Assembly (NCBI RefSeq): GCF_001411805.1
Contig: NZ_CP007214.1
Location: forward strand, 62,001 to 126,000
Length of the DNA stretch: 64,000 bases
Direction of reading: 5' to 3'
DNA from: Burkholderia plantarii
GTDB taxonomy: Bacteria > Pseudomonadota > Gammaproteobacteria > Burkholderiales > Burkholderiaceae
The notes under the pieces were generated by a model, which was given only the letters and a program-made list of their open reading frames with translations, did not search any database and had not been told where the DNA came from. A program made the position numbers and the translations under genes. Below, one piece after another: positions 713 to 17,220 of this stretch (position 1 is the stretch's first letter; each line of letters begins with the position of its first letter).

Positions 713-2773
713 TCAGAAAATGTCGAAGTGGCCATTGGAATCGTCGGGCGCGCTGCCGAAGCCATCCGACTCGCCGCTGGTACGCCCCTGAACTTCGCCC
801 GTGTCCGCGTCGACGACTTCACCGGACGGGAGCATGATGAGATTGCCCGGCGCGGCACCGGCACCGGCAGCGGCGGAAGCGCAAGCGGCGGAAGCGGCCG
901 GCGCGGTCGCCGCAGCAGAAGGCGGCGAAGAGGGGACGGGAGGGGCCGATGCCGCCGGCGCCGATTGGACCGCCGCAGCAGTTGAGGAAGACGTCGCCGC
1001 CGGCGCCGGCACGGCGATCTGCGGATTCGGGGCCGCGGACGGCGGGAGCCACAACCCGGAAGCCTGGCGCGGAACGAATGGTGTCGCGATCTGCGCGATC
1101 GGAACGTATCCGTATTTCACGCGCGCGACCGGATAATCGCCCGGCGTCACGAGATAGCCCTCCATATCGGGCAACCGCAAGATCTCGGACGCGAGCACAA
1201 TGTCCCGCAGGTTGCGGCGCGCGAAGACGCTCATGCTGTCGCGACGTTCGTCAATCCCGATGGTCGCGTTTTCCTCCTTTTCATCGATATCGGCCTGGCC
1301 GATCGCATTGACCAATGCCTTTGCCGAGTCTCCATCGGTCACACGCAAGAGCAGCTTGGTTTGGCAGCCCGAGATGATGGTGCGCGCGAGGTGATCGCCA
1401 TAAGTTTCGAAAAGTTGGGAAAAATCCTGAAGTCCGAGCACGAAGCAGCCACCGAATTTGCGTGTTCCGGTGACGGCCATCTTCATGATCTCGAGCTTCT
1501 GCAAGCCCGGTAGCTCGTCGTAGAAATACCAGAAGCGCTCGGCGTGAATCGGATCCAGCGACAGCAGTGCCTGGATCGCGACGTCGCACCACAAACTGAT
1601 GACTGGAAGCAGCGCGGATTTTTGTTCCTCATTGACGGTGATGAACAGCCAAGAGTCATCGTCCTCCTTCTGTGTCCACTCGCGAATCGAGAATGGCTCG
1701 CCCTCGTCATGGAGGAAGCGGAAGCTGTCCAGCTGATTTTGCACGGTCATCTTGAGGCTCATGCCGGTCCGCTCGGTAACGGGATCGACATACGTTGCGG
1801 CCGCCTCGCGAATCAAAAGCGCATGAAGTTCGTCGAGGTTGCTGCGCGAGATCGCTTTATATAGCTCAGCATTCGTTCGCTTGTTTGACTGGCCGAGCGC
1901 GCGTAGTGAATCCTTGAAGACCATCCGAGCCGCGATCGCGAAAAAAGGCTGCGGGTCCTTCGGTGGCAGCGGGATGAGCGCCTCCGCGATGTTGTCGTAA
2001 TGGATCTCTCCATGAATCTCTCGCCATGGATTCCAATTCGGACTTCTCGCGTCGAGGGGGTTCAGGATCACATCCTTTCCTTCGCGGTAAAACGCCGCGG
2101 TGAACTCGCCCGAAGAATCGTAGACGACAGCCTTTTTACCGCGCGCTCTTACCTGCGCCATCAACTCGAAGAACTGCCGCGACTTGCCGGTACCCTGTGC
2201 GCCGGCGATGAGCGTATTGAGATTTTCGGCGCCTCTGCGCATTGGCACGCCGGCGATCCGATAGGGGCTCGCATCGTTGCGAGCCACCAATTCGGATTTG
2301 AGCTGTTTTGCCTTGACTAGGCGAGCGCCACGCACCTGATGATCGGTGAGTCGCTTGCGGCCGTACTCCATCCAGAAAAGCGTGACGAGCACGAAGCAGC
2401 CGATAGTGGTCAAGCCCCCGTAGAGAGCGGCATTGTAGATTTCGACGTTGACGGAGTCGGCGGCGTCTCGTGTAAAAGCGAGCGCCTCGGCCGGTTGCAT
2501 GGAGGTGCTTGCCGAGTCGGAATTGAAAGTGATCGTGCGGTTCGCCATTGGCACAACGGTCAGCAAATCGGCCTGAAGGTGCTTGAGCGCGAGATACCGA
2601 TCGTCAGCGGAAGTGGCGAGAAACAGCGAGCCCGCCGCGACCAGGATTCCGGCAATCAGCGAACCGGCCAGAACGAAGAGGACACCGCTGGCGAAGAGTT
2701 TTGCCTGCTGCCACCATAGGGCAATGCCGCGCGAAAAAGTAGCGGTGGTGCTCGGAGCGCGGGCGTTATTCAT
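713..2773 (-). CDS. Type IV coupling protein (TrwB/TraD/VirD4 family)
   Basis: 686 aa inner-membrane ATPase that hands the relaxase-DNA complex to the type IV secretion channel. Two hydrophobic segments (about 27-52 and 115-135) flank a periplasmic loop, as in TrwB/TraD. The Walker A motif GAQGTGKS is at 191-198, and the Walker B region reads YFYDELPGLQ. The last 130 residues are Ala/Pro-rich and probably disordered, ending in an acidic tail with DDS and DIF. The start ATG overlaps the end of the upstream TrwA-like gene by 8 bp, so translation is probably coupled. The relaxase follows 9 bp after the stop. No secretion-channel (virB/trw) genes are in the window, so they must lie beyond the left edge or elsewhere. 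Confidence 0.93.
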   Translation of the reverse strand: MNNARAPSTTATFSRGIALWWQQAKLFASGVLFVLAGSLIAGILVAAGSLFLATSADDRYLALKHLQADLLTVVPMANRTITFNSDSASTSMQPAEALAFTRDAADSVNVEIYNAALYGGLTTIGCFVLVTLFWMEYGRKRLTDHQVRGARLVKAKQLKSELVARNDASPYRIAGVPMRRGAENLNTLIAGAQGTGKSRQFFELMAQVRARGKKAVVYDSSGEFTAAFYREGKDVILNPLDARSPNWNPWREIHGEIHYDNIAEALIPLPPKDPQPFFAIAARMVFKDSLRALGQSNKRTNAELYKAISRSNLDELHALLIREAAATYVDPVTERTGMSLKMTVQNQLDSFRFLHDEGEPFSIREWTQKEDDDSWLFITVNEEQKSALLPVISLWCDVAIQALLSLDPIHAERFWYFYDELPGLQKLEIMKMAVTGTRKFGGCFVLGLQDFSQLFETYGDHLARTIISGCQTKLLLRVTDGDSAKALVNAIGQADIDEKEENATIGIDERRDSMSVFARRNLRDIVLASEILRLPDMEGYLVTPGDYPVARVKYGYVPIAQIATPFVPRQASGLWLPPSAAPNPQIAVPAPAATSSSTAAAVQSAPAASAPPVPSSPPSAAATAPAASAACASAAAGAGAAPGNLIMLPSGEVVDADTGEVQGRTSGESDGFGSAPDDSNGHFDIF

Positions 2774-3215
2774 GGCCGCCCCCGGTCAATTCGCGAATTT
2801 TGGCCCGGGCCATGTCCTGCGCGCGATTGCGCATCTGCGGGTCGCGGTCGTGGGCGATCGCGCAGAGAATCTCGTTTCCGGTGAAGACGGCTTCGAGCTG
2901 GGCGTCCTGAACTTTGTTCAGCCGTATGCCGCCCGGTTGGGTCCGGTCCGGCGCGGGAGACGCTGGACGAGGGGGCGGCGTCGCCGCGACCTGTGCCACC
3001 AGTTCCTGCACGGCAGCCATCAGCGCGAGGATGCGCTGCTCGAGCTGGACCACATTGTCGTTGAGAACGCCTTGGGCGAGATATCGCCGAACGTATTCGG
3101 AAAGCGAAAGCCCGGCTTCGTGAGCCTTGGCGCGATAGAAGGCATCCGTTACCGGATCAGCCTTGATTGACCATGGGCTGAGCGCGCGCTTGCCCGGCGC
3201 TTTGAGACGCGGCAT
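2766..3215 (-). CDS. TrwA-like / MobC-like oriT accessory DNA-binding protein
   Basis: 149 aa. The N-terminal 50 residues (SIKADPVTDAFY, then GLSLSEYVRRYL) look like the ribbon-helix-helix or MobC-type DNA-binding head of relaxosome accessory proteins. A Pro-rich linker and a helical C-terminus follow. The start at 3215 is chosen because a GAGG ribosome site lies 7 nt upstream and the motif begins right after it; an open frame continues to 3332 without a better start. It is the first gene of the trwA-trwB-trwC-like operon and lies beside the candidate oriT, as trwA does in R388. It probably binds the repeated GYGTATTACC sites at 3392-3506, may repress its own operon, and may assist nicking (inference). 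Confidence 0.75.
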   Translation of the reverse strand: MPRLKAPGKRALSPWSIKADPVTDAFYRAKAHEAGLSLSEYVRRYLAQGVLNDNVVQLEQRILALMAAVQELVAQVAATPPPRPASPAPDRTQPGGIRLNKVQDAQLEAVFTGNEILCAIAHDRDPQMRNRAQDMARAKIRELTGGGHE

Positions 3216-3391
3216 GGAGACCTCATGTCGAGAGATCCCTACCTTGAACCCCGAGAATTTTTTTGTCGGCTCGGCGAGAAATCTAGCCGTCCGTGTGGCG
3301 TGGATCGTAGCACGGCGAGCACGAGTCGGCACGTTTCCAAACGGGATTTTCTGCCTGCCTCGCTTTTACGGCCGGCTTGATTTTTCGCATT

Positions 3392-3987: not shown

Positions 3988-4136
3988 GCAGGTTTTCCAC
4001 ATGTCCACGGGTCCGGACCGACGCCGCGATGCATCCACATCGCAGAGCGTCGGCCGCGCGCCGTTACCCACAACGGTGTTTGTTGTGGATAACGGGAGAA
4101 GCGCGGGGACCGGTGCGTCATGTGGGAAACCTGCCC
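3988..4136. other. Nested inverted repeats carrying DnaA-box-like sequences
   Basis: The outer arms GCAGGTTTTCCACATG and CATGTGGGAAACCTGC pair with one mismatch. Inside them, CCGTTACCCACAA (4062-4074) pairs with TTGTGGATAACGG (4083-4095) with one mismatch. The stem contains a consensus DnaA box (TGTGGATAA, 4084-4092), and the arms hold near-matches (TTTTCCACA 3993-4001, TTACCCACA 4064-4072, TGTGGGAAA 4121-4129). A hairpin with a DnaA box in its stem is the known signal for a DnaA-dependent (ABC) primosome, so this may be a single-strand initiation site or part of an origin. Confidence 0.5.
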
Positions 4137-4290
4137 GCGTTGCGGAGGGGAGGCGGGCGAGATCGGATCGGTTTTGCTGTGAGGCGTGGGCGTCCGAGGG
4201 CGTGTCTCGAGAGGGTGATTTTCGGCGGCCGCGACGGTGGCGGCCGGCCGCGGTGACACAGCGCAGCGTGAGCTGCGCACCTGGATTTCC

Positions 4291-5010
4291 GCGCCGGGCG
4301 GCCCGCGCTCGATAGGAGCGGGCCGCCCGGCGCGGCGGCTGTGCGGCTGGCGCGAGCGCGGATTGGCGATCGCTGGCGCGGGCGGCCCCACCGCGCGCGC
4401 TAGCGCGCTCGTCCCTCACGACCGGCAGTACGCCCGCGAGCAGCGGGCGCGTTCGCCTGGCTGGCAGTTCCGCGCCGGGCGGCCCGCGCTCAGTAGGAGC
4501 GGACCGCCCGGCGCGGCGGCTGCTCGGATGGCGCGAGCGCGGATTTGCGACCGCCGGCGCGGCCGGCCCCACCGCGCGCACCAGCGCGCTCGTCCATCAC
4601 GACCGGCAGTACGCCCGCGAGCAGCGGGCGCGTTTGCCTGGCTGGCCGTTCCGCGCCGTGCGGCCGGCGCACGTTGAAAGCCGACCGCCCGGCGCGGCGG
4701 CTGCTCAGGTGGCGCGAGCGCGGATTTGCGACCGCCGGCGCGAGCGGCACCACCGCGCGCGCCAGCGCGCTCGTCCGTCACGACCGGCAGTTCGCACGCG
4801 AGCAGCGGGCGCGTTCGCCTGGCTGGCCGTTCCGCGCCGGGCGGCCCGCGCTCGGTAGAAGCGGACCGCCCGGCGCGGCGGCTGCTCGGATGGCGCGAGC
4901 GCGGATTGGCGACCACCAGCGCCGACGGCCCCACCGCGCGCCAGCGCGCTCGTCCATCACGACCGGCAGTTCGCACGCGAGCAGCGGGTGCGTTCGCCTG
5001 GCTGGGCGCT
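4291..5010. repeat. Four tandem copies of a 181-bp GC-rich repeat
   Basis: Unit starts are at 4291, 4472, 4653 and 4834, an exact 181-bp period; the last copy is a few bases short. Each unit begins with a long inverted repeat (GCGCCGGGCGG ... CCGCCCGGCGC) and ends with the dispersed hairpin CGCCCGCGAGCAGCGGGCG. Open frames through it on both strands have highly biased composition, so I read it as non-coding. It lies between oriT and the first leading-region gene. Confidence 0.9.
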
Positions 5011-5817: not shown

Positions 5818-5894
5818 TGGCGCGTCAGAAGGGATTCGAACCCCCGACCCTCGGATTAGAAATCCGCCGCTCTCTCCGGCTGAGCTACTGACGC
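5818..5894 (-). tRNA. tRNA-Arg (anticodon TCT), with encoded CCA
   Basis: The minus strand folds as a cloverleaf: 7-bp acceptor (GCGTCAG/CTGACGC), D arm with AGCTCAG, anticodon loop TTTCTAA giving TCT, and a T arm with GGTTCGAATCC. Discriminator G and CCA are encoded, for 77 nt in all. The first pair of the anticodon stem is a G-A mismatch. It decodes AGA, a rare codon in this GC-rich background. A tRNA among leading-region genes is unusual and may serve as cargo or as an integration target. Confidence 0.88.
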
Positions 5895-7129: not shown

Positions 7130-7306
7130 GCTGGGTTGTGGATCTGCCATTGGGAGCCGCCTCGACGCGTTTTTAGCGCACGCCGGCCGGGGTGCAAGGG
7201 CGCGCCTCTGGCGCGGGCGCAGCCTTTACCCTTGCGCCCCGGCCGGCGTGCGCTATGCGTCGAAAAGGGGCGGCTCCCAATGGCAGATCCACGCGCTTAA
7301 CCCAGT
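7130..7306 (-). promoter_or_regulatory. Large palindrome A, candidate single-strand promoter (Frpo-like)
   Basis: The arms are about 70 nt and almost perfectly complementary (GATCTGCCATTGGGAGCCGCC on one side, its complement on the other; further in GCGCACGCCGGCCGGGG), with small bulges and a loop of about 28 nt. The right arm on the + strand carries TTGCGC (7232-7237), 16 nt, TATGCG (7254-7259). Folding of the + strand would create a duplex promoter firing toward the gene at 7113. Confidence 0.65.
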
Positions 7307-7817
7307 ACAAAAGGATGGAGCGCAACCACACGCTTTCCCCGGCCGGACCGACCACACGGCCCGGGGCGCTTCTGCCCCGGGTCCCCTCGCCCGGCTTTGC
7401 CGGGCGCTGGACCTGCTGTTCGCCCGCGAGCAGCGGGCGCGTAACCCCGGATGAGAAGTTGGCAAGCGAAGCGCGCAGCGCCGGAACGGCGCGGAGGCGT
7501 CATGGGATTGAAGCCCGAAGGGGCGAGACTCGCGTAGCGAGGCTCGACGCGCAGCGCGAAAGCCCGGTCCGTAGCGCAGCGAAGGAGACGCCCATCGCAG
7601 CGCGCGGCGGCGGCACCACGCAGGTAACGAGCCGGTCGGTGAGACCGAGGCAGAGAACTACCGGTGAGGATTTACGGGGGAGCGGACATTGCAAAGGTGA
7701 GCATGTCCGGGAACATGCTGGTGCTGCCGAGCCGAGCCGGCCGCACCGCCGCCGCGCGAAAGCGAGACGGCGGGCGCGGGGCGGCCGGCCGGCATACCCG
7801 CCGGCGCCGGCGCGTGC
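7307..7817. other. Non-coding stretch of the leading region
   Basis: No convincing gene on either strand. It contains one copy of the dispersed hairpin CGCCCGCGAGCAGCGGGCG (7421-7441). The rest is GC-rich sequence, and its open frames look like composition artefacts. Confidence 0.5.
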
Positions 7818-10049
7818 TCAGTCGCGAGCAGGCATGCCTTCGGCCTCGGCGTCGGCGACCTCGTCGCGATCGATATGGGGCGTGTTGGCCCGGTCGGCGG
7901 CATCGTCCGTAGTGCTGTCGTGGGCGCCAACGTCGTTCCCGCTACCGGCCGGGTCATCGGTGTCCGCCTCGTCCGTGGCCGGTTCATCGGGCTCGGACCG
8001 GTCCTCGTCGTCCTCATCGGCGCGCCCGACACGCCACAGTTCGCGCGGGCGGGTCTTGGCGGCGACAAAGTGCTCAGGGAGCCATCCGGTGGCGCTAACG
8101 AGGCGTTCGGCTTCAGCAGCGGCGGCGTCCTTCTTCAACTTCAGGATGCGCATACCCTCGGCAGGCGAAACGGCGGCGGTCACGACGTCGGCGATGCGGG
8201 CCTTCGGGACGTGGTCGAAGTAGCTGGCGCGGGTGGGCTTCCAGTCGTCGGCGAGATTCAGGCCGAGCGCGGGGATAAGTGCGTTGATGCTGTGCGGCGC
8301 TTCGTCGTGCGCGACACCGTCGAGGCTGGCGGCGACGTACTGCGCGAGGATCGAGAGCAGGCGTTCGTCGGTCTGTTCGATGCACCAGCCGAGCAAGGCG
8401 TCGGTGTCAGTTGGAATGACGCCGCCCCATGCGCCGCGCTGCTCGGTCGCGAGCCGGTAGGCGAGATCGTCGGCGAGTTCCGGCGCGTGCTTGCCAACCT
8501 TGCCGGTGTTGTCCTGCCACTGGATATCGATCGCGCTCCCGGCGGAGCCCGGTGCGTACTCGGAGACGAGGAACCGATGAACGAGCGCGGCGAGGGCGAC
8601 GTGCGGCTGACGCGCGATCGCCATGGCGATGGAGGCGGTACGGCGGGCGTTGAGGCGCAGGGTAAGCGCGGCAGAGTGCGGTCCCTTCGTGGCTGGCGCT
8701 GCTGCGGGGGAGCCGCCGGGCGGCGACGTGGCGTCATCTGCGCCGGGGCCGTCGTCGTCCTCGCCGTCGTTGTCCTCGCCTTCGTCGTCTGCGCTGTTGC
8801 CGCCCTTTTCGGGGTCGGTCGTGTCGCGCGTGATCCATCCCCGCTCGATGTTGGGCACGCCGTCGCTGCCGATCGAGACAACCGCGCCGGCGGTGGCCAT
8901 CTGCAAGGGCGTATACACCTGCAAAGATTCTTCGATCTGCACGTGGCGGTGTTCGAGCGCGGCGAACTCGTCGCCAAGCCGCTCGAAGGTATCGTGGTCA
9001 ATTTCCTCGTGTTCCTGCTCGGCCTGAATCGCGTCCATGCGGGCGGAGATGGCGTCCATCTCCTGCTGCTGCTCGTCGGTCGGCGGCACAGCCATCGCCG
9101 GCAGGCGTTGGAGCGTGGCGCGCGCGGCGTAGTCGAAGATCGGTACGGCCTTGACCCATGCCCATCCCTCTTCCTTGACCGTGGCAGCGACGGTTTCGAG
9201 CAGGTCGGCGGCGACGCGCTCCATCAAGGCATGGTCGGCATACCACGCGGCGCCTTCGTCGGAGAACAGGTCGCGGCGCACGGTGCCGCCGGCCGCCTCG
9301 TAGGCGTCGATGCCGACGAACAGAGCGATGCGGTTGCTTTGGAAATCGTGCTCGCCGGCGACCAGCTTCCGACGAATCGTGGAAGCGGACCGCTCCCATT
9401 CCGGGGCGTCGAACCACGCGCGGTCCTGCTCGTCGTGACTGTCGGAGACGGCGAGGGCTTGCATCACGTCGAGGCGGATCTCGTCGTTGCGAAAAAGCTC
9501 GATCAGCTTCGGGGAGACGCGCGCCAGCTTGAGGCGCTGACGCACCATGGTTTCGCTGATCGCGTAGATGGCCGCGACCTCGGGGATGGAGCGGCCGGCA
9601 TCGACCAGCGCGCGGAACGCGTCGCACTGGTCGGCCGGGTGCATCGGCTGCTGCGTCACGTTTTCGCTGGTGCTGATCAGCACGGCCGCGTCGGTCGAGA
9701 CGACGAGGCAACGCACCTCGGTGTCGAGCGAACGCTTACCTCGCTCGACCGATAGGAGCATCGCGAGCCGGCGGGACTCGCCTGCGGCGACGCCATACGT
9801 CTGCGCGCGCTTCGCGCCGACCTTCATGGGGTGGACAACGAGGTTTTGCAGCAGACCGACAGCCTCGATGTTCGCGGCCAAGGTTTGCACGCCGGTGCGC
9901 TTCGCGCGGCGCACGTTGAACGGGGACGCAACGAGACGCCTGAGAGGAATCAGGCGTTCTTCGCCTGCCAGCTGGTGGGCCTCGGGGGGTGCGGGGGGAA
10001 CGCCCGCGTCGTGAGCGAGAGCCGGGATTTCGGTGATCACTGCGTTCAT
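7818..10049 (-). CDS. ParB/Spo0J-domain protein of the leading region (YubM-like)
   Basis: 743 aa from the ATG at 10049, which has AAGGAGG 7 nt upstream; an open frame continues to 10490 with biased composition. After the GVPPAPPEAH motif (16-24), residues about 30-190 form a ParB N-terminal fold: RLIPLRRLVASPFNVR, GESRR (90-94), SENVTQQPMHPAD (128-140). A helix-turn-helix (PEVAAIYAISETMVRQRLKLA) follows. The long C-terminal part is charged, with an acidic stretch (DDEGEDNDGEDDDG) and two acidic blocks at the end. No ParA partner is nearby, so this is more likely the nuclease or regulatory ParB-like type found in leading regions (YubM of F) than a partition protein. Confidence 0.85.
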   Translation of the reverse strand: MNAVITEIPALAHDAGVPPAPPEAHQLAGEERLIPLRRLVASPFNVRRAKRTGVQTLAANIEAVGLLQNLVVHPMKVGAKRAQTYGVAAGESRRLAMLLSVERGKRSLDTEVRCLVVSTDAAVLISTSENVTQQPMHPADQCDAFRALVDAGRSIPEVAAIYAISETMVRQRLKLARVSPKLIELFRNDEIRLDVMQALAVSDSHDEQDRAWFDAPEWERSASTIRRKLVAGEHDFQSNRIALFVGIDAYEAAGGTVRRDLFSDEGAAWYADHALMERVAADLLETVAATVKEEGWAWVKAVPIFDYAARATLQRLPAMAVPPTDEQQQEMDAISARMDAIQAEQEHEEIDHDTFERLGDEFAALEHRHVQIEESLQVYTPLQMATAGAVVSIGSDGVPNIERGWITRDTTDPEKGGNSADDEGEDNDGEDDDGPGADDATSPPGGSPAAAPATKGPHSAALTLRLNARRTASIAMAIARQPHVALAALVHRFLVSEYAPGSAGSAIDIQWQDNTGKVGKHAPELADDLAYRLATEQRGAWGGVIPTDTDALLGWCIEQTDERLLSILAQYVAASLDGVAHDEAPHSINALIPALGLNLADDWKPTRASYFDHVPKARIADVVTAAVSPAEGMRILKLKKDAAAAEAERLVSATGWLPEHFVAAKTRPRELWRVGRADEDDEDRSEPDEPATDEADTDDPAGSGNDVGAHDSTTDDAADRANTPHIDRDEVADAEAEGMPARD

Positions 10050-10628
10050 GCTACCTCCTTGCTGTGGTGGAAAAATTGCTGCCTTGTGGAGCCGCCTCGA
10101 CGCATGGGTGCGCGAGCGGGAAGGCATGGCAGGGGCGCGCGCCAGGCCGCATGCGGAGCGCAGGCGAAGCCGCGCACCGAACGGGCGCAGGGCGCGGCGA
10201 AGCGAACCCTTGCGATGTCGGCCCGCCGCGCTATGCGTCGGGATGAGGCGGCCCACAGGCAGCGCCACCGCAGCTGAGGGGGTGTAAGGCAGGGATGGGA
10301 TGCCGAAGCCCGGGGCTCGCCGGCGCGGGCCGTGATCGGCCCGCGGCCCCTTCCGCGCGGCAGGCCGCGCGGCTGGCGGGGCGGCCAGCGCCGGGGCGGG
10401 CCGCGCGAGCGGCCAGGCCCCAGGAGCGACCGCACTGGGACACCGGCCGCCGGCGAGCGGCTTGCGTGACAGGCAGCGCCTGGCGCGCAAGGTGCGGCCA
10501 GGCGGCCCGGCTGGATAGTCAGCCAGGCGGAGGCCCAGCGAAGGCGTACCGGCGCCCAGCTGGGGTCGTGGTCGGCACCGCGCGCGGCAGGCCGGCGGTG
10601 GCCGCCGCCGGCACTGTGCCGTCAGTTG
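10050..10628. promoter_or_regulatory. Upstream region of the ParB-like gene with palindrome C
   Basis: No gene visible. Palindrome C spans about 10086-10254: GCCGCCTCGACGCAT on the left matches ATGCGTCGGGATGAGGCGGC on the right, with a long, partly self-pairing loop. The right arm carries TTGCGA (10210-10215), 16 nt, TATGCG (10232-10237), the same core as palindromes A and B. It is 36 bp from the ParB-like start and would fire toward it if the + strand folded. The remaining 370 bp is GC-rich with no signal I can name. Confidence 0.55.
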
Positions 10629-10814
10629 CTACCGGCCTGGTTCGTCCCGCGATCGTCGGCCGGCCTCGTAGGCCGCGGCGAGCGCGTCGCGAACGCACCA
10701 GACAGCGACGTCGTGAAAATCGAGGCGATCGTGGTTGCGGGTCGTCAGGGTCGGAATCAGGAGATGCCGGCGTGCGATGTCCTCGAAGAGGACGAGCAGG
10801 TCGTAGGGGATCAT
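10629..10814 (-). CDS. Small protein resembling DUF6900
   Basis: 61 aa. The pattern IARRHLLIPTLTTRNHDRLDFHDVAVWCVRDALAAAYEAG resembles the short DUF6900 proteins that I recall from plasmids; the match is by eye. Its ATG overlaps the stop of the preceding gene (ATGA at 10811-10814), so the two are probably translationally coupled. Confidence 0.6.
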   Translation of the reverse strand: MIPYDLLVLFEDIARRHLLIPTLTTRNHDRLDFHDVAVWCVRDALAAAYEAGRRSRDEPGR

Positions 10815-10984
10815 CGCGCGTCCTTCCGGACGTCCTGGCCGAGTTCGAACGCATCGCGCAGCGCGTGGATGAGTTCGGCGACGGAGACGGTGACGGTGTC
10901 GTCGTCGGTGGTGCCGGTCATGCGCGAGGCGAAATGCTTATCGACGACGGTACAGAGCAAGTGCTTGATGTAGAAGTGGTGCAT
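10811..10984 (-). CDS. Small hypothetical protein (57 aa), coupled to the next gene
   Basis: The start at 10984 (MHHFYIKHLLCTVVDKHF) follows a weak G-rich ribosome site. The C-terminal half, VTVSVAELIHALRDAFELGQ, resembles in pattern the end of its downstream partner (VRDALAAAYEAG), so the two may be distant paralogues. It ends in an ATGA overlap with the next gene. Unknown function. Confidence 0.55.
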   Translation of the reverse strand: MHHFYIKHLLCTVVDKHFASRMTGTTDDDTVTVSVAELIHALRDAFELGQDVRKDAR

Positions 10985-11033
10985 GGGAACCCCGCAGATC
11001 GGCCGGCCGCGGCGAGCGGCCGGCACGGTATGG

Positions 11034-11546
11034 TCAAGAGAGCTGCACGGCGCCGCGATTGGACGCGAGCGTCAGCGCGAAATACCAGTTGCGATACGTT
11101 TCGGCCAGCATCGGGGCGGCGTCGGCGTCGACGATTCGCATGAAACGTTCGAAGTCTTCCGCCAGCTTCGCGCAGACGAATGTGCCGAGCGTCCCGGACA
11201 CGATCGAGAAGTCGATTAGTTCCTTGAACGGCCCCTCCTTCGCGACGATGGCCCCGTTCGCGTGAGACATCTGCGAGCGCCCGATCACTGTCGGGGCATA
11301 GTCGGCGAGTTCGGCCAGCTGCTCGATGAACAGGCAATGCATGAGATAGGTGCCGGCGTTGAAGTCGAAGGCGATCTGGTGCCGATAGATGCGGCCTGAT
11401 TCGATCTCGGGGGCACGCTCAGGGAACCGCGGCGACGGCATCAGTTTCACGGTGTGCGGCTCCAAGGGCTCGCCATGCGCGTCGAGCAGCGGCGATTCGG
11501 CGATTTCGAGTAACGCGTAAGCGGAAACGGTCAGATTCATGGTCAT
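11034..11546 (-). CDS. Hypothetical protein (170 aa), leading region
   Basis: Starts at 11546, or 6 nt later at a second ATG; AGGA lies about 10 nt upstream. Soluble, with no signal peptide and no motif I recognise. It includes GTYLMHCLFIEQLAELADYAPTV and SNRGAVQLS at the end. It follows the methyltransferase gene after 21 bp on the same strand, so the two probably form one transcript. An anti-defence or methyltransferase-linked role would be only a guess from position. Confidence 0.65.
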   Translation of the reverse strand: MTMNLTVSAYALLEIAESPLLDAHGEPLEPHTVKLMPSPRFPERAPEIESGRIYRHQIAFDFNAGTYLMHCLFIEQLAELADYAPTVIGRSQMSHANGAIVAKEGPFKELIDFSIVSGTLGTFVCAKLAEDFERFMRIVDADAAPMLAETYRNWYFALTLASNRGAVQLS

Positions 11547-11567
11547 GGTCGTTTGTCCTCGAAGGGC

Positions 11568-12224
11568 TCAGGCGGCCGCGGCGAGCTGGGCGCCGGCGAG
11601 CGGAGCGGACAGGCGAGCCTTGGCCGCGGCGAAATAGGTCTCGTCGATCTCGATGCCGATGTAGCGGCGGCCGAGTTCGCGGGCCGCGACGCAGGTTGAC
11701 CCCGAGCCCGCGAACGGGTCGAGAACCGTGTCGCCGGGCTTCGTGAACGAACCGATGAGGGCGCGAAGCGCCGAGACCGGTTTTTCGGTCGGATGGTGCC
11801 GGTTGCCGCTGTAGTCGAAGCGCTGCACGTCGGGAATCGGGTTTTCCGGCGCTGCGGGCCGGCCCTTGCCGAGCACGTACGCTGATTCGTGCTGGTACTT
11901 CACCATGCCGCCCTTCGACGCGTAGCTTTTCGTGAACACGATGTGGCCGCAGACGCGGAAACCGGCGGCCTTCCAGGCCCGGAAGAATCGATCCACCTTG
12001 TTCCAGCCGTAGAAGCTCACGCATACGGTGTCGGGCTTGAGCACGCGGTAGATTTCGGCGAACGCGGGATCGAGCCATTCGTCGCTTCGGTCGTTCGCGA
12101 TCGACCGGCCGCTGCGATCGTGGAAATTGACGAGGTAGGGCGGATCCGTGACGACGCAGTCGACGGATTCGGGCGCGAGTTGGGGCATGGCGACAAGGCA
12201 GTCGCCGTTGTACAAAAGGCTCAC
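11568..12224 (-). CDS. Orphan DNA methyltransferase (beta-type, probably N6-adenine)
   Basis: 218 aa. The catalytic motif DPPY is at 27-30, and the SAM-binding motif DPFAGSGST is at 169-177. Because the catalytic motif precedes the SAM motif, this is beta class. NRHHPTEKPVSALRALI, typical of DNA adenine/N4 methylases, lies between them. I take the GTG at 12224 as start because GGAG lies 6 nt upstream; a TTG at 12236 is the alternative. No restriction endonuclease gene is adjacent. In a leading region, an orphan methylase would protect incoming plasmid DNA from host restriction (known for other plasmids; inferred here). Confidence 0.9.
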   Translation of the reverse strand: MSLLYNGDCLVAMPQLAPESVDCVVTDPPYLVNFHDRSGRSIANDRSDEWLDPAFAEIYRVLKPDTVCVSFYGWNKVDRFFRAWKAAGFRVCGHIVFTKSYASKGGMVKYQHESAYVLGKGRPAAPENPIPDVQRFDYSGNRHHPTEKPVSALRALIGSFTKPGDTVLDPFAGSGSTCVAARELGRRYIGIEIDETYFAAAKARLSAPLAGAQLAAAA

Positions 12225-12236
12225 AGCTGGCTCCAA

Positions 12237-12705
12237 GAGTCAAAGGGACGGCAGCCGGAGCGCTATCGTTCGCGCACCGTGCTACCTGGAGCCAGCGCGC
12301 GCCCGCACGAGAATGGCGGGCAAGCGAGCGTGGAATACCGGAGCAAGCGAAGCGCGCGAGGATATGCCGCGAAAGCGCTTGAAGAGGCTGGGGCCGTGCG
12401 ACGCTCGTCGCGCACGGCGTCCGGGCTCGGTCCGCCAGGCACGGGCGGGCGATCGTGGGATCCAGGTTGAGAGGTCGACTGCGTTTGGCCGAGACGGCGA
12501 GCTGCTCGAACAGGACGGGAGACGCGGGCGGTGTTTCGTCCCGGTCATGAGCGACGCGTCGGCCGGCGTGCGACGCCTGGGGCGGCGCCGGCGGGCCGGC
12601 CGCGCGGCGCGATCGCGATCAGTCCCGCCTCGAGCGCATCGCGCGAGCTGGCATACCTGCGTTCCTGGCGAAGCGGTGGCCAGCGTGGTGGCGAGGCGCT
12701 CCGTC
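12237..12705. other. Non-coding stretch upstream of the methyltransferase
   Basis: About 470 bp with no convincing gene. The frames seen are arginine-rich and lack ribosome sites. It should contain the methyltransferase promoter, but I see no palindrome with the TTGYGN-N16-TAYG core here. Confidence 0.45.
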
Positions 12706-12710
12706 GTCTG

Positions 12711-13105
12711 ACCGCGAGCACCAGCTGCTCGGGCGGATCAGCACCATCAGGACGCCGCCGGCGCCGCGCGGCAGCGCGCGCGGCGTACCGGTGCCGGCCG
12801 ACGCGAGCACCAGCTGCTCGGCGCGCGGATCAGCACCACCAGGTCGGCGCCGGCGTCGAGCCGCGCGGCAGCGCGCGCGGCGCGCCGGTAATGGCCGGCG
12901 CGACCACCCGCTGCTCGGCGCACGGTTCAGCACCACCAGGTCGACGCCGGCGTCGAGCCGCCCGGCAGCACGCGCGGCGCGCCGGTGCCGGCCGGCGCGA
13001 TCACCAGCTGCTCGATGCGCGGATCAGCACCATCAGGTCGACGCCGGCGTCGAGCCGCGCGGCAGCGCGCGCGGCGCGCCGGTGCCGGCCGGCGCGCGGA
13101 TCGTC
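12711..13105. repeat. About four tandem copies of a 92-97-bp repeat
   Basis: The marker GCACCAYCAGG starts at 12741, 12833, 12930 and 13027 (periods 92, 97, 97). Each unit has GACGCCGGCGTCGAGCCG followed by GCGCGCGGCGCGCCGGTGCCGGCC and an AGCTGCTCG segment. It ends directly at the stop codon of the DUF932 gene. Frames through it are repeat artefacts. Confidence 0.85.
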
Positions 13106-13933
13106 TTAGCGGATGCGCTCGCGCAGGGCGTCAGCGAGAATCCACAGCGCCCGGTTGAGGCGGACGTCTTGATCGATCCCGGTCACCTCGCGCGTGCGGC
13201 TGCGCCGGCCGGCCGCGCTGCGGCCCTGCAGGCCACCCCGGACGAGCGATTCCTGTACGCGATTGAGCGTCGTCCACAGATCGTCGGACGCGTCGGCGGC
13301 TCGGCGCGGGCGCAGGATCTGGGCCTCGGTCACGGGCGGCGGCGCTTCCGTCGTGTCGTAGCGGGCCGCCAGCGCGGCCTTGGCGAAAGCGTGCTGCTCA
13401 CGCGGCGCCAGCTGGAGGCTGGACATCTCATCCTTCACCTCGCGGATCAGGTCGAAGCCATCGAGCACCTCATAGGCGCCGGCCACGACGTCGTCGACAA
13501 CGTTCCCCTTGTGCGGGACTCGGACGTCGTGCGTTTTCTGGCCGAGAACGAGGCCGTTCTCGCAGACGAAGCGAAAATACCCTGCGAGCATCTGATAGCT
13601 TGAGCTGCCGTCGTGCGAATTCAGGAGGATGATTTCCGGCGAGTCGCCGCCGGCGGCCTGCGTCGCGTGGCGCAGTCGAATCATGTGCTTCGCATGCTCA
13701 CGCTTGCCGAGATCGCGCACGCGCGATTGGCAGGCCATGAAGGGCTGGAACCCTTCGGCGCGCAGTTTCTCGATCACGGCGATCGTCGGAATGTAGGTGT
13801 AGCGTTCCGACCGGGACGCGTGCTTGTCGAGGGCAAAGATCGACGGCGCTGCACGGCGGATCTGGTCGTCGGTCAGGGGCGAGTGCGAGCGGACGATGTG
13901 GGCGGTGCGGCTGAAATTCGAGGCAAGGCGCAT
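13106..13933 (-). CDS. DUF932 (YubP/YfjQ-like) protein
   Basis: 275 aa from the ATG at 13933, with GGAGAA upstream. The family pattern is clear: SRSERYTYIPTIAVIEKLRAEGF, RDLGKREHAKHMIRLRH, EIILLNSHDGSSSYQMLAGYFRFVCENGLV. DUF932 proteins are frequent in leading regions and phages (YubP of F), with no proven biochemical role. The C-terminus is basic (GRRSRTREVTGIDQDV). It starts about 115 bp from palindrome D and stops at the edge of the 97-bp repeat array. Confidence 0.9.
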   Translation of the reverse strand: MRLASNFSRTAHIVRSHSPLTDDQIRRAAPSIFALDKHASRSERYTYIPTIAVIEKLRAEGFQPFMACQSRVRDLGKREHAKHMIRLRHATQAAGGDSPEIILLNSHDGSSSYQMLAGYFRFVCENGLVLGQKTHDVRVPHKGNVVDDVVAGAYEVLDGFDLIREVKDEMSSLQLAPREQHAFAKAALAARYDTTEAPPPVTEAQILRPRRAADASDDLWTTLNRVQESLVRGGLQGRSAAGRRSRTREVTGIDQDVRLNRALWILADALRERIR

Positions 13934-14047
13934 AGCATTTCTCCAGTGGGTTGAGGATGGGTGTCGAGCTGACCGGGACCGAAGATTCGGAGCCCCGCGT
14001 AGGGGTTGTGCGGTTTCGTTCCGGCCTCGGCTTCCTGCTGCCGCCGG

Positions 14048-14190
14048 TCCCGTTAGTTCGTCGCCCTGCGACACACGGAGCGCGGGCGCGGGGCCGTGCC
14101 AGGGCGGCCGCCTGCGGCCGGCGAAGCGAACCCTTGCGCGGCACCGTGTTCGTGCTACGGTCGCGATTTGGGCGGCGAACGGACGGGACT
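14048..14190 (-). promoter_or_regulatory. Palindrome D, candidate single-strand promoter upstream of the DUF932 gene
   Basis: The arms (about 14048-14103 and 14131-14190) pair imperfectly: GTCCCGT and GTTCG-YCGCCC on one side, their complements on the other. The right arm carries TTGCGC (14134-14139), 16 nt, TACGGT (14156-14161). CGAACCC precedes it, as in palindromes B and C. It lies about 115 bp upstream of the DUF932 start. The rest of 13934-14509 has no gene. Confidence 0.55.
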
Positions 14191-14509
14191 GGACGGAGCG
14201 CGCGGGCTGGAAGGGAAGCGCTCGCCGCGCGGCGAGCGCCGATTCGGGGCATCGCCCCGACTGGATAGCGGTGTTGTGCTCTCGTTAGGGCGTGACGCCC
14301 GCAGGGCCGAGCACGATGGGCTCGGCGCGCAGCGCGAACGCCCGACCCGGCGGGTCACGCCGGGGAACGCTCGAGCTGCTCGGATCTGCGTCGGACGACG
14401 GGCGCCCCGGCGCCCGCATGCCGAGCGGCCGGGCGCGACGTGCGGCGCGTCGCCCGGCCGCGCGGATTGCACGTCGATCACCTGCCGCCGCGCCGGCGGC
14501 GCCGTCAGG

Positions 14510-14971
14510 CTAGAACAGCGACAGTTGCGCGGGGGCTTCGGGCTCGCGCGCGCGGGCGGCCGACGCATCGTGCTCGAGCCACGGGTCCGCGTCGGTTTCG
14601 TCGTCGGGGGCGGTGGCGCTCGCAACGGGCGAAGCGCATCGATCGACAGCGCGCGCGATCGCTTCGAACTCGGCGAGCGTGGTGGCCGCCAGCGCGGCGC
14701 TCGCCTGCTCGGGCGTCGAGCACTCGGCGCTCGCATAGACACCGTCATATCGCCGCGATACACCGAACAGCCCGGCCTTCGCGCCGCGCGGAATGTAGGC
14801 AACGAGGCGGATGCCGTACCAGTCGTCGGTCTTGCGCGCCCATGCGCTGTCGATGTAATCACGAACAAGGCCGTGCGCAGCCGCCACCTCTGCGCCGCGT
14901 CGGATGTGCTCTTGGTACAGATAGTCGCGCGCGGTACGGAAGTTCGGGAGATCGAGATATCGCTGATGCAT
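14510..14971 (-). CDS. Hypothetical protein ending in a beta-clamp-binding motif
   Basis: 153 aa. The N-terminal two thirds (RTARDYLYQEHIRRGAEVAA, DDWYGIRLVAYIPRG, GLFGVSRRYDGVYA) look like a compact domain I do not recognise. An acidic Ala-rich linker follows, then the last residues AQLSLF. QLSLF fits the pentapeptide by which polymerases and other proteins dock on the DnaN sliding clamp. Its position at the extreme C-terminus after a flexible linker is typical of a working clamp motif. Start at 14971; the ribosome site is weak. Confidence 0.65.
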   Translation of the reverse strand: MHQRYLDLPNFRTARDYLYQEHIRRGAEVAAAHGLVRDYIDSAWARKTDDWYGIRLVAYIPRGAKAGLFGVSRRYDGVYASAECSTPEQASAALAATTLAEFEAIARAVDRCASPVASATAPDDETDADPWLEHDASAARAREPEAPAQLSLF

Positions 14972-15156
14972 GGTCCCGCTCTTGGTGGTGTGGGTGCGGG
15001 GCAACGCATCCTGCAGGTGCCCCGCTTCGTCTTCAGTGGGAATCGCTGCGGGTGAACCGGGGGGCGGCCGTCAGAACAGCGGTAGGACGGCCGCCGCTCC
15101 TGTGCCGCGATCCCGAAGCGGCATCGGAGGCGACGATATGCGCGCGTCGGCTGCGA

Positions 15157-15519
15157 TCAGCCGTGAGCCGCACATGGGTGGCCATGCTCGTTCTGGCAAC
15201 CCGGGCACCGAAGCATCGCGAAAAACTCCCACTGCGCCACCCAGCCGTTCATCCAGGCGTTAGAGAGATCGGGGACATCCGCGAAGAACGCAGGCACTTC
15301 TTCGAAGGAACCTGCAGTCTCCACGTCCGCTCCGGCTGCGCGAGCCGCGATGGCGTCGGCGCGTCCGAGCGCTTCGGCATCCCAGATTGCGTTCAGGACG
15401 GCACCCTCGGCTGTAGTAATGGCCTCGTCGCCGCCGTCGCGGGCAGCAATCAGCGCCGTTCCACTGAAGGCGTAGGCGCATCGGACTTCGAGGTACGGGT
15501 TGCTAGAGATCTGGAGCAT
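15157..15519 (-). CDS. Hypothetical protein with C-terminal Cys/His cluster
   Basis: 120 aa. Start at 15519 with GGAGAA upstream. An alanine-rich helical middle (AEALGRADAIAARAAG) follows YAFSGTALIAARDGG. The end reads CPGCQNEHGHPCAAHG, a CxxC plus His/Cys set that could bind zinc. Family not recognised. It lies downstream of the gene at 15575 with a 55-bp gap, on the same strand. Confidence 0.6.
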   Translation of the reverse strand: MLQISSNPYLEVRCAYAFSGTALIAARDGGDEAITTAEGAVLNAIWDAEALGRADAIAARAAGADVETAGSFEEVPAFFADVPDLSNAWMNGWVAQWEFFAMLRCPGCQNEHGHPCAAHG

Positions 15520-15574
15520 CGTCGGTTCTCCGTTGAATTGAGGTTGAAGCGGGCCTGCAGGCCGTGCTCGCGGA

Positions 15575-16231
15575 TCAATGCACATCACGACGGACGAACA
15601 GGCCGGCCGCCGTGGGCGATCGCGGGAACCCGGCGACGTCAGTGCTGGCGCTCAGGATTTCGTCGATGTCGGACTGGAGGCAGCTGCCGGTACGCTTCGC
15701 TCCCACGCGGTGGACTCCCTCGACCTCCACGCCGCAGAGCACGCCGGCGCGGTAGCTGGCAACGCTCAGCGCCGCGCGGCTGTCCGGCGAGAGCCGTTCT
15801 CGATAGCGGCGCTCAACCACATTGAGCGCTCGTTCGACGGCGGCATCGCTGAACGCACGGGTGAGGGAGACCCGGTCGGCCGCGAGTCGAACGACGTGGC
15901 ATCCGACAGGCGTCAGCGCAAAGTGCTCGACCGCAACCGTGCTCCCGCCGGCGCCGAGGCGTCGCGCCTGCAGCGGGTTGACGAAGCGGCCGACCTGGTC
16001 GACGCGCGGGCCGTCAGTCCACGACACGTCGAGCAGCGTGCCGGCGTCGGTCGAATGCACGGACACGGCAAAGGCGCAGGACGGGAACGCTTCGCCGAGG
16101 ATCTTCTGCACGAGCTGCACGGTGTCGACGAGCGTCAGCACGGTGACCAGCGCGAGCGGTTGTTGAACGGCGGTGGCGCCGACATCTTTGTCGACGCGAC
16201 GAGTTGGGAGAGCGGCGGGACGATTCAGCAT
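15575..16231 (-). CDS. Protein with an LPD29-like domain
   Basis: 218 aa, start at 16231 with GGAG 9 nt upstream. The stretch VSVHSTDAGTLLDVSWTDGPRVDQV resembles the LPD29 domain, in which a short strand pair ends in SWTDGP; such domains occur in large polyvalent proteins of mobile elements. RVSLTRAFSDAAVERALNVVERRYRERL follows. Function unknown; the domain call is from memory and moderate. Confidence 0.6.
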   Translation of the reverse strand: MLNRPAALPTRRVDKDVGATAVQQPLALVTVLTLVDTVQLVQKILGEAFPSCAFAVSVHSTDAGTLLDVSWTDGPRVDQVGRFVNPLQARRLGAGGSTVAVEHFALTPVGCHVVRLAADRVSLTRAFSDAAVERALNVVERRYRERLSPDSRAALSVASYRAGVLCGVEVEGVHRVGAKRTGSCLQSDIDEILSASTDVAGFPRSPTAAGLFVRRDVH

Positions 16232-16310
16232 GACGAGTCTCCAGATTCGAATGAAATGCGGATGGCACGCGCCGGCCGGGCCGGCGGCCGGGGTTACCAT
16301 AGGAGGCGGC

Positions 16311-16796
16311 TCACGGGTTCCAGAAGTAGCGGCTCATGGGCTCGCGAAGGGCCTCGGAGAGCGCGAGGGCGCCGGAGAGATCGGCGATCAGCGCCGGGCT
16401 GTAGCTGCCGAGGACGTCCCAACCGAGATCGTCGTAGATCAGCCTGATGCAGCCCTTCCAACCGGCGGTGCCGACTTCCCCTGCGTAAAGTTCTTCTTCG
16501 CCGCTCGCCATCAGAGCGGCCATGATTTCGCCAAGGTCGGTTGTGACGGGGGTGGCCCACTTCTCGCCGTCGTGCAACCGGAGCGCATAGCCGGCGCCGA
16601 TCAGGCCGGCCGCCGCGCAGGCGACGATCGAGCGCTCCACCAACTGCCGGAGAACAACGATATCGTCGGGGTGAGGATTGGCGGCGACGTATGCGGCAGT
16701 GACGGCATCCTTGAAATGACGGGTCGTGGCTTGCTCGAGCAGGTTCGCCACGATGGCGTAGCCGTCGATCATGAATTCTTCGGTTTCGTTGCTCAT
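16311..16796 (-). CDS. Hypothetical protein (161 aa), leading region
   Basis: Starts MSNETEEFMIDGYAIVANLL at 16796 with CGGAGA upstream. Alternatively an in-frame GTG at 16916 would add 40 residues containing GVPPGPPEAHRQAG; the same leader is certainly translated in the gene at 6823. Middle: ALRLHDGEKWATPVTTDLGEIMAALMASG; the end has DLGWDVLGSYSPALIADLSGALALSEALREPM. No family recognised. Palindrome B lies just upstream. Confidence 0.6.
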   Translation of the reverse strand: MSNETEEFMIDGYAIVANLLEQATTRHFKDAVTAAYVAANPHPDDIVVLRQLVERSIVACAAAGLIGAGYALRLHDGEKWATPVTTDLGEIMAALMASGEEELYAGEVGTAGWKGCIRLIYDDLGWDVLGSYSPALIADLSGALALSEALREPMSRYFWNP

Positions 16797-16927
16797 AGCG
16801 TGGTCTCCGGTAAGAGGGGATTTCATGTCGCCTGCCTGGCGGTGAGCCTCGGGGGGTCCGGGGGGAACGCCCGGGACGTTGGTGTGGTTGGTTCGGTCGG
16901 GGGTGGTTGCGCTCACGGTTTCGTCCT

Positions 16928-17220
16928 TTCGTTTCGGGTTGTGGATCTGCCATTGGGAGCCGCCTCGACGCGTTTTTAGCGCTCGCCGGCCGGGCCACAA
17001 GGGCGCGTCCTGGCGCGGTGGGTGCGCGGCGTAGCCCTGCACCCACCGTGACGGGACGTGGGCGCAACGCTCGCCCGGAAGCCGCAGGCGGAGCGCAGCC
17101 GCAGGCGAGCACCGAACGGGTGAGGACGGGCGGTGCGCCGAACCCTTGTGGCCCGGCCGGCGTGCGCTATGCGTCGAAAAGGGGCGGCTCCCGGTGGCAG
17201 ATCCACGCGCTTAACCCGAG
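16928..17220 (-). promoter_or_regulatory. Large palindrome B, candidate single-strand promoter
   Basis: The arms (16935-17004 and 17143-17216) are near-identical to those of palindrome A, including the GATCTGCCAYYGGGAGCCGCC and CGCCGGCCGGGCCACAAGGG blocks, with a loop of about 140 nt that has its own GGTGGGTGC/GCACCCACC hairpin. The right arm carries TTGTGG (17146-17151), 16 nt, TATGCG (17168-17173). It sits directly upstream of the GTG at 16916. Confidence 0.65.

Follow-up and report, generated by a model that had tools for sequence, protein, structure and literature searches.

Promoters that act on single-stranded DNA have been documented in F and in ColIb-P9-type plasmids of enteric bacteria. 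Two such elements of F, Frpo1 and Frpo2, are required for early expression; they are near-duplicates (92% identity) located about 5 kb apart, and ardA is described as being expressed rapidly after plasmid entry (PMC9849209). The Frpo idea has been extended by homology to many plasmids, where candidates were gathered in two ways, by BLAST (E 1e-6) with five established Frpo/ssi sequences as queries and by searching four islands for a consensus (PMC11541004). The word 'Burkholderia' has no occurrence in the main text of that study. Here we analyze a stretch of 64,000 nucleotides (nt) from Burkholderia plantarii (contig NZ_CP007214.1, positions 62,001 to 126,000; hereafter the window), which carries four long palindromes, labeled P1 to P4. 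We consider it very probable that P1–P4 are single-strand promoters working like Frpo/ssi, which would express the genes for a ParB-like protein, a DUF932 protein, a methyltransferase and an LPD29-domain protein as the plasmid enters a recipient. This interpretation, put forward in an initial annotation of the window, gains sequence-level support from the spacing of a TA dinucleotide, the strand bias of stem mismatches, bulges, gene orientation and the presence of the same core upstream of ardA in ColIb-P9. We computed the folding of the elements, the complementary divergence of their arms, TA spacing, strand-specific mismatches, bulges and orientation.

The palindromes, initially annotated at 7130-7306, 10086-10254, 14048-14190 and 16928-17220, were folded as single-stranded + strand segments and compared with shuffled sequences (200 shuffles each for P1, P2 and P3, and 100 for P4). 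All of them fold strongly, in agreement with the initial annotation, which had called for this analysis. The minimum free energy (MFE) is -108.5 kcal/mol for P1 (7121..7315, z -20.0), -74.7 for P2 (10078..10263, z -5.9), -63.8 for P3 (14041..14196, z -5.7) and -149.7 for P4 (16922..17231, z -14.1). None of the shuffles folded equally well (0/200 for P1, P2 and P3, 0/100 for P4). A fold scan of the whole contig with sliding 200-nt segments places P1 and P4 as the top two, with P2 9th and P3 19th among the 25 segments listed. The annotated motif TTG(C/T)GN, exactly 16 nt, TA(T/C)G(C/G)(G/T) is present in all four right arms on the + strand: TTGCGC-N16-TATGCG in P1 (7232..7259), TTGCGA-N16-TATGCG in P2 (10210..10237), TTGCGC-N16-TACGGT in P3 (14134..14161) and TTGTGG-N16-TATGCG in P4 (17146..17173). 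In the folded hairpin the right arm would serve as the non-template strand. The TTG is preceded by CGAACCC in P2, P3 and P4, the three cases noted before, and by TTTACCC in P1. All four elements have ACCCTTG followed by TA at 15, 16 or 18 nt inside the stem. They also stand just upstream of minus-strand genes, as annotated, the distance to the downstream open reading frame being about 30 bp for P2 (the ParB-like gene), about 0.1 kb for P3 and P4, and about 0.3 kb for P1. Over the entire 8.08 Mb genome, TTGYGN-N16-TAYGSK occurs at 16 sites (12 forward, 4 reverse) and a reversed control pattern at 46; the contig that includes the window (197,362 bp) has only the P1–P4 sites. This count is weak when taken alone, because the motif was picked after the sites had been seen.

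P1–P4 resemble Frpo1 and Frpo2 of F in being leading-region hairpins with promoter boxes in the stem and near-duplicate copies kilobases apart. The genes served by the F elements overlap those of B. plantarii (ParB-like, DUF932, methylase). The candidates described in PMC11541004 likewise share with P1–P4 the proposed function and similar gene company. However, P1–P4 have no significant BLAST match to the Frpo1 and Frpo2 stretches, which we assigned by position and folding, and none of them reaches E 1e-6, the threshold of the Frpo sequence family, against the F leading region. The F site that does match P2 (E 2e-4) and P3 (E 0.003) is a different one, upstream of an antirestriction gene. Because of the missing match to Frpo1/Frpo2, we describe P1–P4 as working like Frpo and do not file them as Frpo proper.

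The outer arms and flanks of P1 and P4 are near-identical (148/153 and 203/218 aligned bases). P1 (7000-7460) and P4 (16790-17380) sit in one duplicated module, comparable to the near-duplicate Frpo1/Frpo2 of F. Such duplication, together with the several copies per plasmid that are common in related elements, is what one would expect of elements that are mobile or repetitive and play no part in regulation. We regard this explanation as hardly credible in view of the orientation of the elements to genes and their strand-specific pairing (both presented below). Moreover, the genome was searched with P1, P2 and P3 as queries (best 40 of 115, 194 and 119 candidates scored, respectively), and the matches consisted of the queries themselves, P4 (found from P1 and P2) and a single chromosomal match of 29 nt. 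Thus, no second full copy was matched elsewhere in the genome among the best 40 candidates per query, and P1–P4 share one orientation; randomly oriented copies elsewhere, which the initial annotation would have held against its proposal, were not seen.

P4 carries a full apical cap, CGAACGGGTGAGGA (17113..17126, located by pattern search). The cap CGAACGGGYGAGGA is exact in P4; as judged by eye, it is degenerate in P2 (variant CGAACGGGCG) and absent from P1 and P3. The pattern of cap plus CCCTTG occurs once in the genome, inside P4. The 73-nt apical stretch of P4 (17083-17155), which includes CGAACGGGTGAGGA, has matches in 254 plasmid records (E 0.01), Enterobacter plasmids among them; a wider search with P4 also matches R388, PromA, Pandoraea and Xanthomonas plasmids. 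Pattern searches returned 90 stretches from 84,980 species genomes and 17 from 2.9 million viral contigs, the viral loci comprising only subfamily V/other members and one spurious locus (L136). The 137 matches in all loci were reduced to 75 non-redundant elements by removing those near contig ends and those more than 80% identical over the 50 nt after TTG. Six loci were dropped by inspection as spurious (L062, L063, L084, L086, L099 and L136; one of them is presumably 16S rRNA-like), leaving 69 elements. The addition of P1–P3, whose motif was already known, resulted in a set of 72. P1, P2 and P4 belong to subfamily I and P3 to subfamily II, while subfamily V and 'other' elements were retained as a contrast set. 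Overall, the CCCTTG family reaches across Beta- and Gammaproteobacteria (Burkholderia, Cupriavidus, Caballeronia, Pandoraea, Variovorax, Zoogloeaceae and enterobacteria). In the literature searched, which did not extend to subscription papers, a CCCTTG hairpin family in Burkholderia is not described.

The family includes elements of ColIb-P9, F and R388. Two CCCTTG cores (TTGCAT-N15-TAAGAT, AAG unpaired) are found in ColIb-P9, one located 229 bp upstream of ardA and the other 230 bp upstream of a second antirestriction gene; these two elements are presumably the known ssi sites. In F the same core, again with AAG unpaired, lies 230 bp before an antirestriction gene. P2 is 80% identical to the ColIb-P9 element over 40 nt (E 3e-5 in a set of nine sequences). 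The ColIb-P9 elements differ from P1–P4 in having a spacer of 15 instead of 16 and an internal loop in place of staggered bulges. R388 (IncW) has two elements with cap and CCCTTG core on its + strand, at about 19.9 and 23.9 kb, both preceding minus-strand genes, as in B. plantarii; the -10 of its TTGCCC-N15-TAGGGC is poor. A further cap-family-like hairpin of F (4622-4821 of locus L024, TTGCAT-N15-TAACGT) is found about 1 kb upstream of leading genes that end in a DNA methylase. The DR1/DR2 repeats of RA3 were considered as relatives and dropped, since they are described as iteron-like. Subfamily V (L018, L025, L030, L071, L087 and others) has the same cap and CCCTTG core with no TA at 15-18; some of its members have TA at spacing 20, and it shows no orientation preference to genes. 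Perhaps subfamily V elements are priming sites instead of promoters.

Among these diverged elements, TA is over-represented at distances from TTG that suit sigma70. In the 72 elements, the TTG-to-TA spacing is 15 in 12 cases, 16 in 19, 17 in none and 18 in five, so that 36 of the 72 have TA at 15, 16 or 18. At every other spacing from 3 to 32 there are 0-2 occurrences, except for nine at spacing 20, which look like subfamily V by eye. Within subfamilies I and II the argument from spacing is circular, because spacing defined them. This does not apply to the count over all elements, nor to the lower-stem signatures, which were searched for irrespective of spacing and lie at a constant distance in 9/9 elements of subfamily I, 6/6 of II, 5/5 of IV and 6/8 of III.

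To what extent the folded form is maintained can be judged from the stems themselves. The 19-nt interval from TTG to TA shows a median identity of 42% among the 19 non-redundant elements of subfamilies I and II (P1–P4 included). Nevertheless, their arms stay complementary: the spacer scores 12.1 against its own left arm and 7.1 against the left arms of other elements of the same subfamily. Selection on the duplex would be expected to yield equal numbers of G·T and A·C mismatches, and likewise of A·G and C·T, and selection on the opposite strand or on the mRNA of the gene would be expected to reverse the balance seen on the element strand. On that strand we counted 69 G·T, 58 A·G, 8 G·G, 8 A·A, 7 T·T, 7 A·C, 6 C·T and 3 C·C, or, pooled by kind, 127 G·T and A·G versus 13 A·C and C·T. 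The G·T:A·C ratio between TTG and TA only is 28:1 (p 1e-7, uncorrected for relatedness). G·T exceeds A·C in 18 of the 19 elements, one is a tie and none shows the reverse; the window's own P1–P4 have 19 G·T and no A·C. The other inverted repeats of the plasmid, used as a control (554 overlapping windows), have 1579 G·T and 1379 A·C. Beyond subfamilies I and II, the ratio is 18:6 in subfamily IV and leans weakly the same way in V/other (26:12). Base composition was rejected as an explanation for the surplus of G·T, as the right arms (G 0.38, C 0.28, A 0.20, T 0.14) predict near-equal G·T and A·C; it would somewhat favor A·G over C·T. Another conceivable source of the G·T surplus is a C-to-T mutational bias acting on the transferred strand. 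Since the arms diverge yet stay self-complementary, with mismatches biased by strand, the data suggest that subfamily I and II arms are under selection for the fold of the element strand, and not of the duplex or the gene mRNA.

The same counts bear on two other views of these hairpins. The strand-biased mismatches led us to reject a protein-bound palindrome or a cruciform in subfamilies I and II. If the elements were mRNA leaders or terminators belonging to minus-strand transcripts, this would explain why strong hairpins occur at gene starts. However, a G·T of the + strand becomes A·C in minus-strand mRNA (69 versus 7 in subfamilies I and II), and Rfam at the gathering threshold yields only a tRNA in the window, which makes this explanation most improbable.

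Another feature shared by the 19 elements is a pair of staggered bulges, one on the template side at or beside the -10 position and the other on the non-template side near the predicted start. The template-side (left-arm) bulge consists of 4-5 nt in subfamily I and 2-3 in subfamily II. The non-template-side (right-arm) bulge has 4-6 extra bases, the first of them 9-12 nt from the T of TA. Positions fall within the set limits in 18/19 cases on the template side (P3 is one place outside) and in 19/19 on the right side. The letters of the bulges vary (on the template side AAAA, CCCC, TTCT, AACC, GCCC, given as complement), while their place is nearly fixed. In P1 the fold shows a 4-nt template-side bulge TTTT opposite the -10 (7170..7173) and a non-template-side bulge near the predicted start, formed by five bases of AAAAGG (7263..7268, register ambiguous by 1 nt); in P4 the TTTT opposite the -10 is at 16973..16976 (all + strand). 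Subfamilies III and IV have mismatches or loops in place of the double bulge. Over 36 elements compared, A(-11) is unpaired in 20, compared with 3 for T(-12), 6 for the next base and 17 for the next highest of 22 positions. This signal stems from subfamilies II–IV; in P3, for instance, A(-11) is unpaired and lies opposite G.

The elements are also consistently oriented. Promoter-side genes were assigned by a home-made gene caller, checked by eye on the window only. In the redundant set, the gene on the promoter side has the predicted orientation in 62 of the 63 cases of subfamilies I–IV (15/15, 10/10, 27/28 and 10/10), and five more elements have no left gene. The corresponding non-redundant figures are 29/29 and four without a left gene, the rules for subfamily III differing slightly between the two counts. 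In contrast, subfamily V elements are oriented 18 with and 26 against (redundant), and V/other 16 and 16 (non-redundant). In the folded + strand, the right-arm TTG..TA reads out of the stem base leftward into minus-strand genes, whereas in duplex DNA it points right, away from them. The single-strand promoter idea is favored because the right-arm letters face away from the genes in the duplex.

It might be argued that the elements are ordinary double-strand promoters, with the left arm driving the genes on the minus strand and the palindrome acting as an operator. The elements are indeed directly upstream of genes, and the left arms of P1 and P4 have TTG-N16-TA on the minus strand. The left arms of P2 and P3 lack this arrangement, and strand-biased mismatches are unexpected for a protein-bound or cruciform duplex. 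The arms were compared in 40 anchored elements, one of ColIb-P9 included; of the 73 examined, seven could not be anchored on the left and 26 were excluded because their arms aligned weakly. TTG plus TA at 15-18 is found in the right arm only in 26, in both arms in three (P1 and P4 among them), in the left arm only in one and in neither in 10. Because a TTG in the right arm was a condition of the search, the comparison is fair for TA only; taken by itself, TA is present in the right arm of 29 and the left arm of 5 of the 40. Taken together, we find the double-strand promoter explanation very unlikely.

That limit on the arm comparison is one of several points that weigh against single-strand promoters. 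The support is drawn from sequence only. The left arms of P1 and P4 retain TTG-N16-TA on the minus strand, and therefore a weak duplex promoter may exist there. Although the stems of P1–P4 do rebuild a -35 and a -10 from folded single-stranded DNA, the boxes are weak, with 3/6 matches to TATAAT and 3/6 to TTGACA in all four. In half of the 72 elements a sigma70-like TA, at 15-18, is missing, and related elements cannot be counted as independent. Strand bias is absent from subfamily III (12 G·T versus 19 A·C). The in-register double bulge is absent from subfamily III and IV elements, except for a partial one in L058, and A(-11) is mostly paired in subfamily I. Finally, the transferred strand of the B. 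plantarii plasmid was assigned via synteny with R388 and F.

From the above features we infer how a single-strand promoter of this kind may operate. In the recipient, each palindrome of the entering + strand would fold into a long stem, the right arm (TTG, 16 nt, TA) becoming the non-template strand and the left arm the template. The two bulges would keep the initiation region partly open. Host RNA polymerase would start in this region, exit through the stem base and transcribe the minus-strand leading genes, including small ones of unknown function. Once the plasmid is duplex, the hairpin would be lost, the right arm would face away from the genes and expression would stop. The left arm, mostly without a correctly spaced TTG/TA pair, would not support duplex expression. 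We give an even chance to a broader proposal. In it, Burkholderiales plasmids use a partly pre-opened promoter whose two staggered bulges, almost constant in position and length but variable in sequence, flank the stretch to be melted by polymerase, so that folded single-stranded DNA would need little melting; in most members the template-side bulge would also disrupt the distance between TTG and TA in the arm that faces the gene, leaving the duplex form off. Together with the common CCCTTG core, this would unite the elements of F, ColIb-P9, R388 and Burkholderia plasmids in one large family of single-strand promoters, acting as a switch that is on only while the plasmid is entering. Three things appear to be new within the literature searched: a CCCTTG family of wide reach that includes a Burkholderiales branch, the evidence from strand-specific mismatches and the double-bulge design. 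If the signature of sequence and structure provided by these elements holds, it could serve to locate and orient leading regions, along with their candidate anti-defence genes, in plasmids in which a BLAST search starting from Frpo may overlook them, the comparison of P1–P4 with Frpo1/Frpo2 of F being a case in point. The bulge geometry is also a testable statement on how RNA polymerase starts on folded single-stranded DNA, and the hairpins may help plasmids to express their first genes on arrival.

RNA made from the hairpin promoter may also prime second-strand synthesis. Another possibility is that the elements are single-strand initiation sites for complementary-strand priming only, with gene expression incidental. 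It agrees with the occurrence of cap and CCCTTG core without TA at 15-18 in subfamily V (e.g. PromA plasmids), where orientation is 18 with and 26 against, and Frpo transcripts are described in the literature as serving both priming and expression. We nevertheless consider priming as the sole role very unlikely, since TA-bearing elements face genes in 62/63 cases and the bulges of subfamilies I and II are located at -10 and near the start.

The plasmid setting is consistent with a leading region. The closest plasmid record to the window is B. plantarii p1 (99.0% at the P1 region and 99.7% at the P4 region), typed MOBF/MPF_F; B. glumae plasmids come next, and p3_YH67 is likewise typed MOBF/MPF_F. 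A TrwB/TraD-type coupling protein (713..2773, minus strand) marks the presumed side of the origin of transfer (oriT). It is adjoined by a NikA-like relaxosome protein (2766..3332, minus strand; 21 bits, under the Pfam cut-off of 27), and in a B. glumae plasmid the MobF relaxase sits beyond this side. From 5.9 kb through P4, every gene called by the home-made caller is on the minus strand. The ParB-like leading-region protein downstream of P2 (7818..10049) is 26% identical to the ParB-like F gene after ssb and has no Pfam match at E 0.01. An N6/N4 DNA methyltransferase (11568..12236) is 60% identical to the DNA methylase of the F leading region, and the DUF932 protein downstream of P3 (13106..13933) is 58% identical to the DUF932 gene of that region. 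The gene cluster downstream of P4 includes an LPD29-domain protein (15575..16231, assigned by domain match); these four are minus-strand genes as well. Judged by synteny and gene content, P1–P4 thus occupy the location typical of Frpo/ssi, with the coupling protein and NikA-like protein to the left and the ParB-like, DUF932 and methylase relatives to the right. The layout of the window is that of R388, the stbABC genes excepted. What we take to be the nick sequence of R388 is at 16162, on the same strand as the R388 CCCTTG elements; the presumed F nick sequence is also on the strand of the F elements. Judged by synteny with these two plasmids, the + strand of the B. plantarii plasmid is therefore probably the transferred one.

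Several minor features of the window are worth recording. A strong hairpin at 3990-4130 (z -6.3 for the 3900-4200 fold) has a DnaA-box-like TGTGGATAA in an inner stem and is conserved in loci L009 and L021. It resembles a DnaA-dependent single-strand initiation site. Near the presumed oriT (about 3.3-3.9 kb), a GC-rich palindromic unit of 47 nt is present in three copies at 4289-4880, with a fourth recognized by eye. The tRNA gene (5821-5894, minus strand; Rfam RF00005, 64.4 bits) lies within the presumed leading region. Farther away, a minus-strand open reading frame at 29943-35489 codes for 1848 amino acids with sacsin-like and NO VEIN C-terminal domains.

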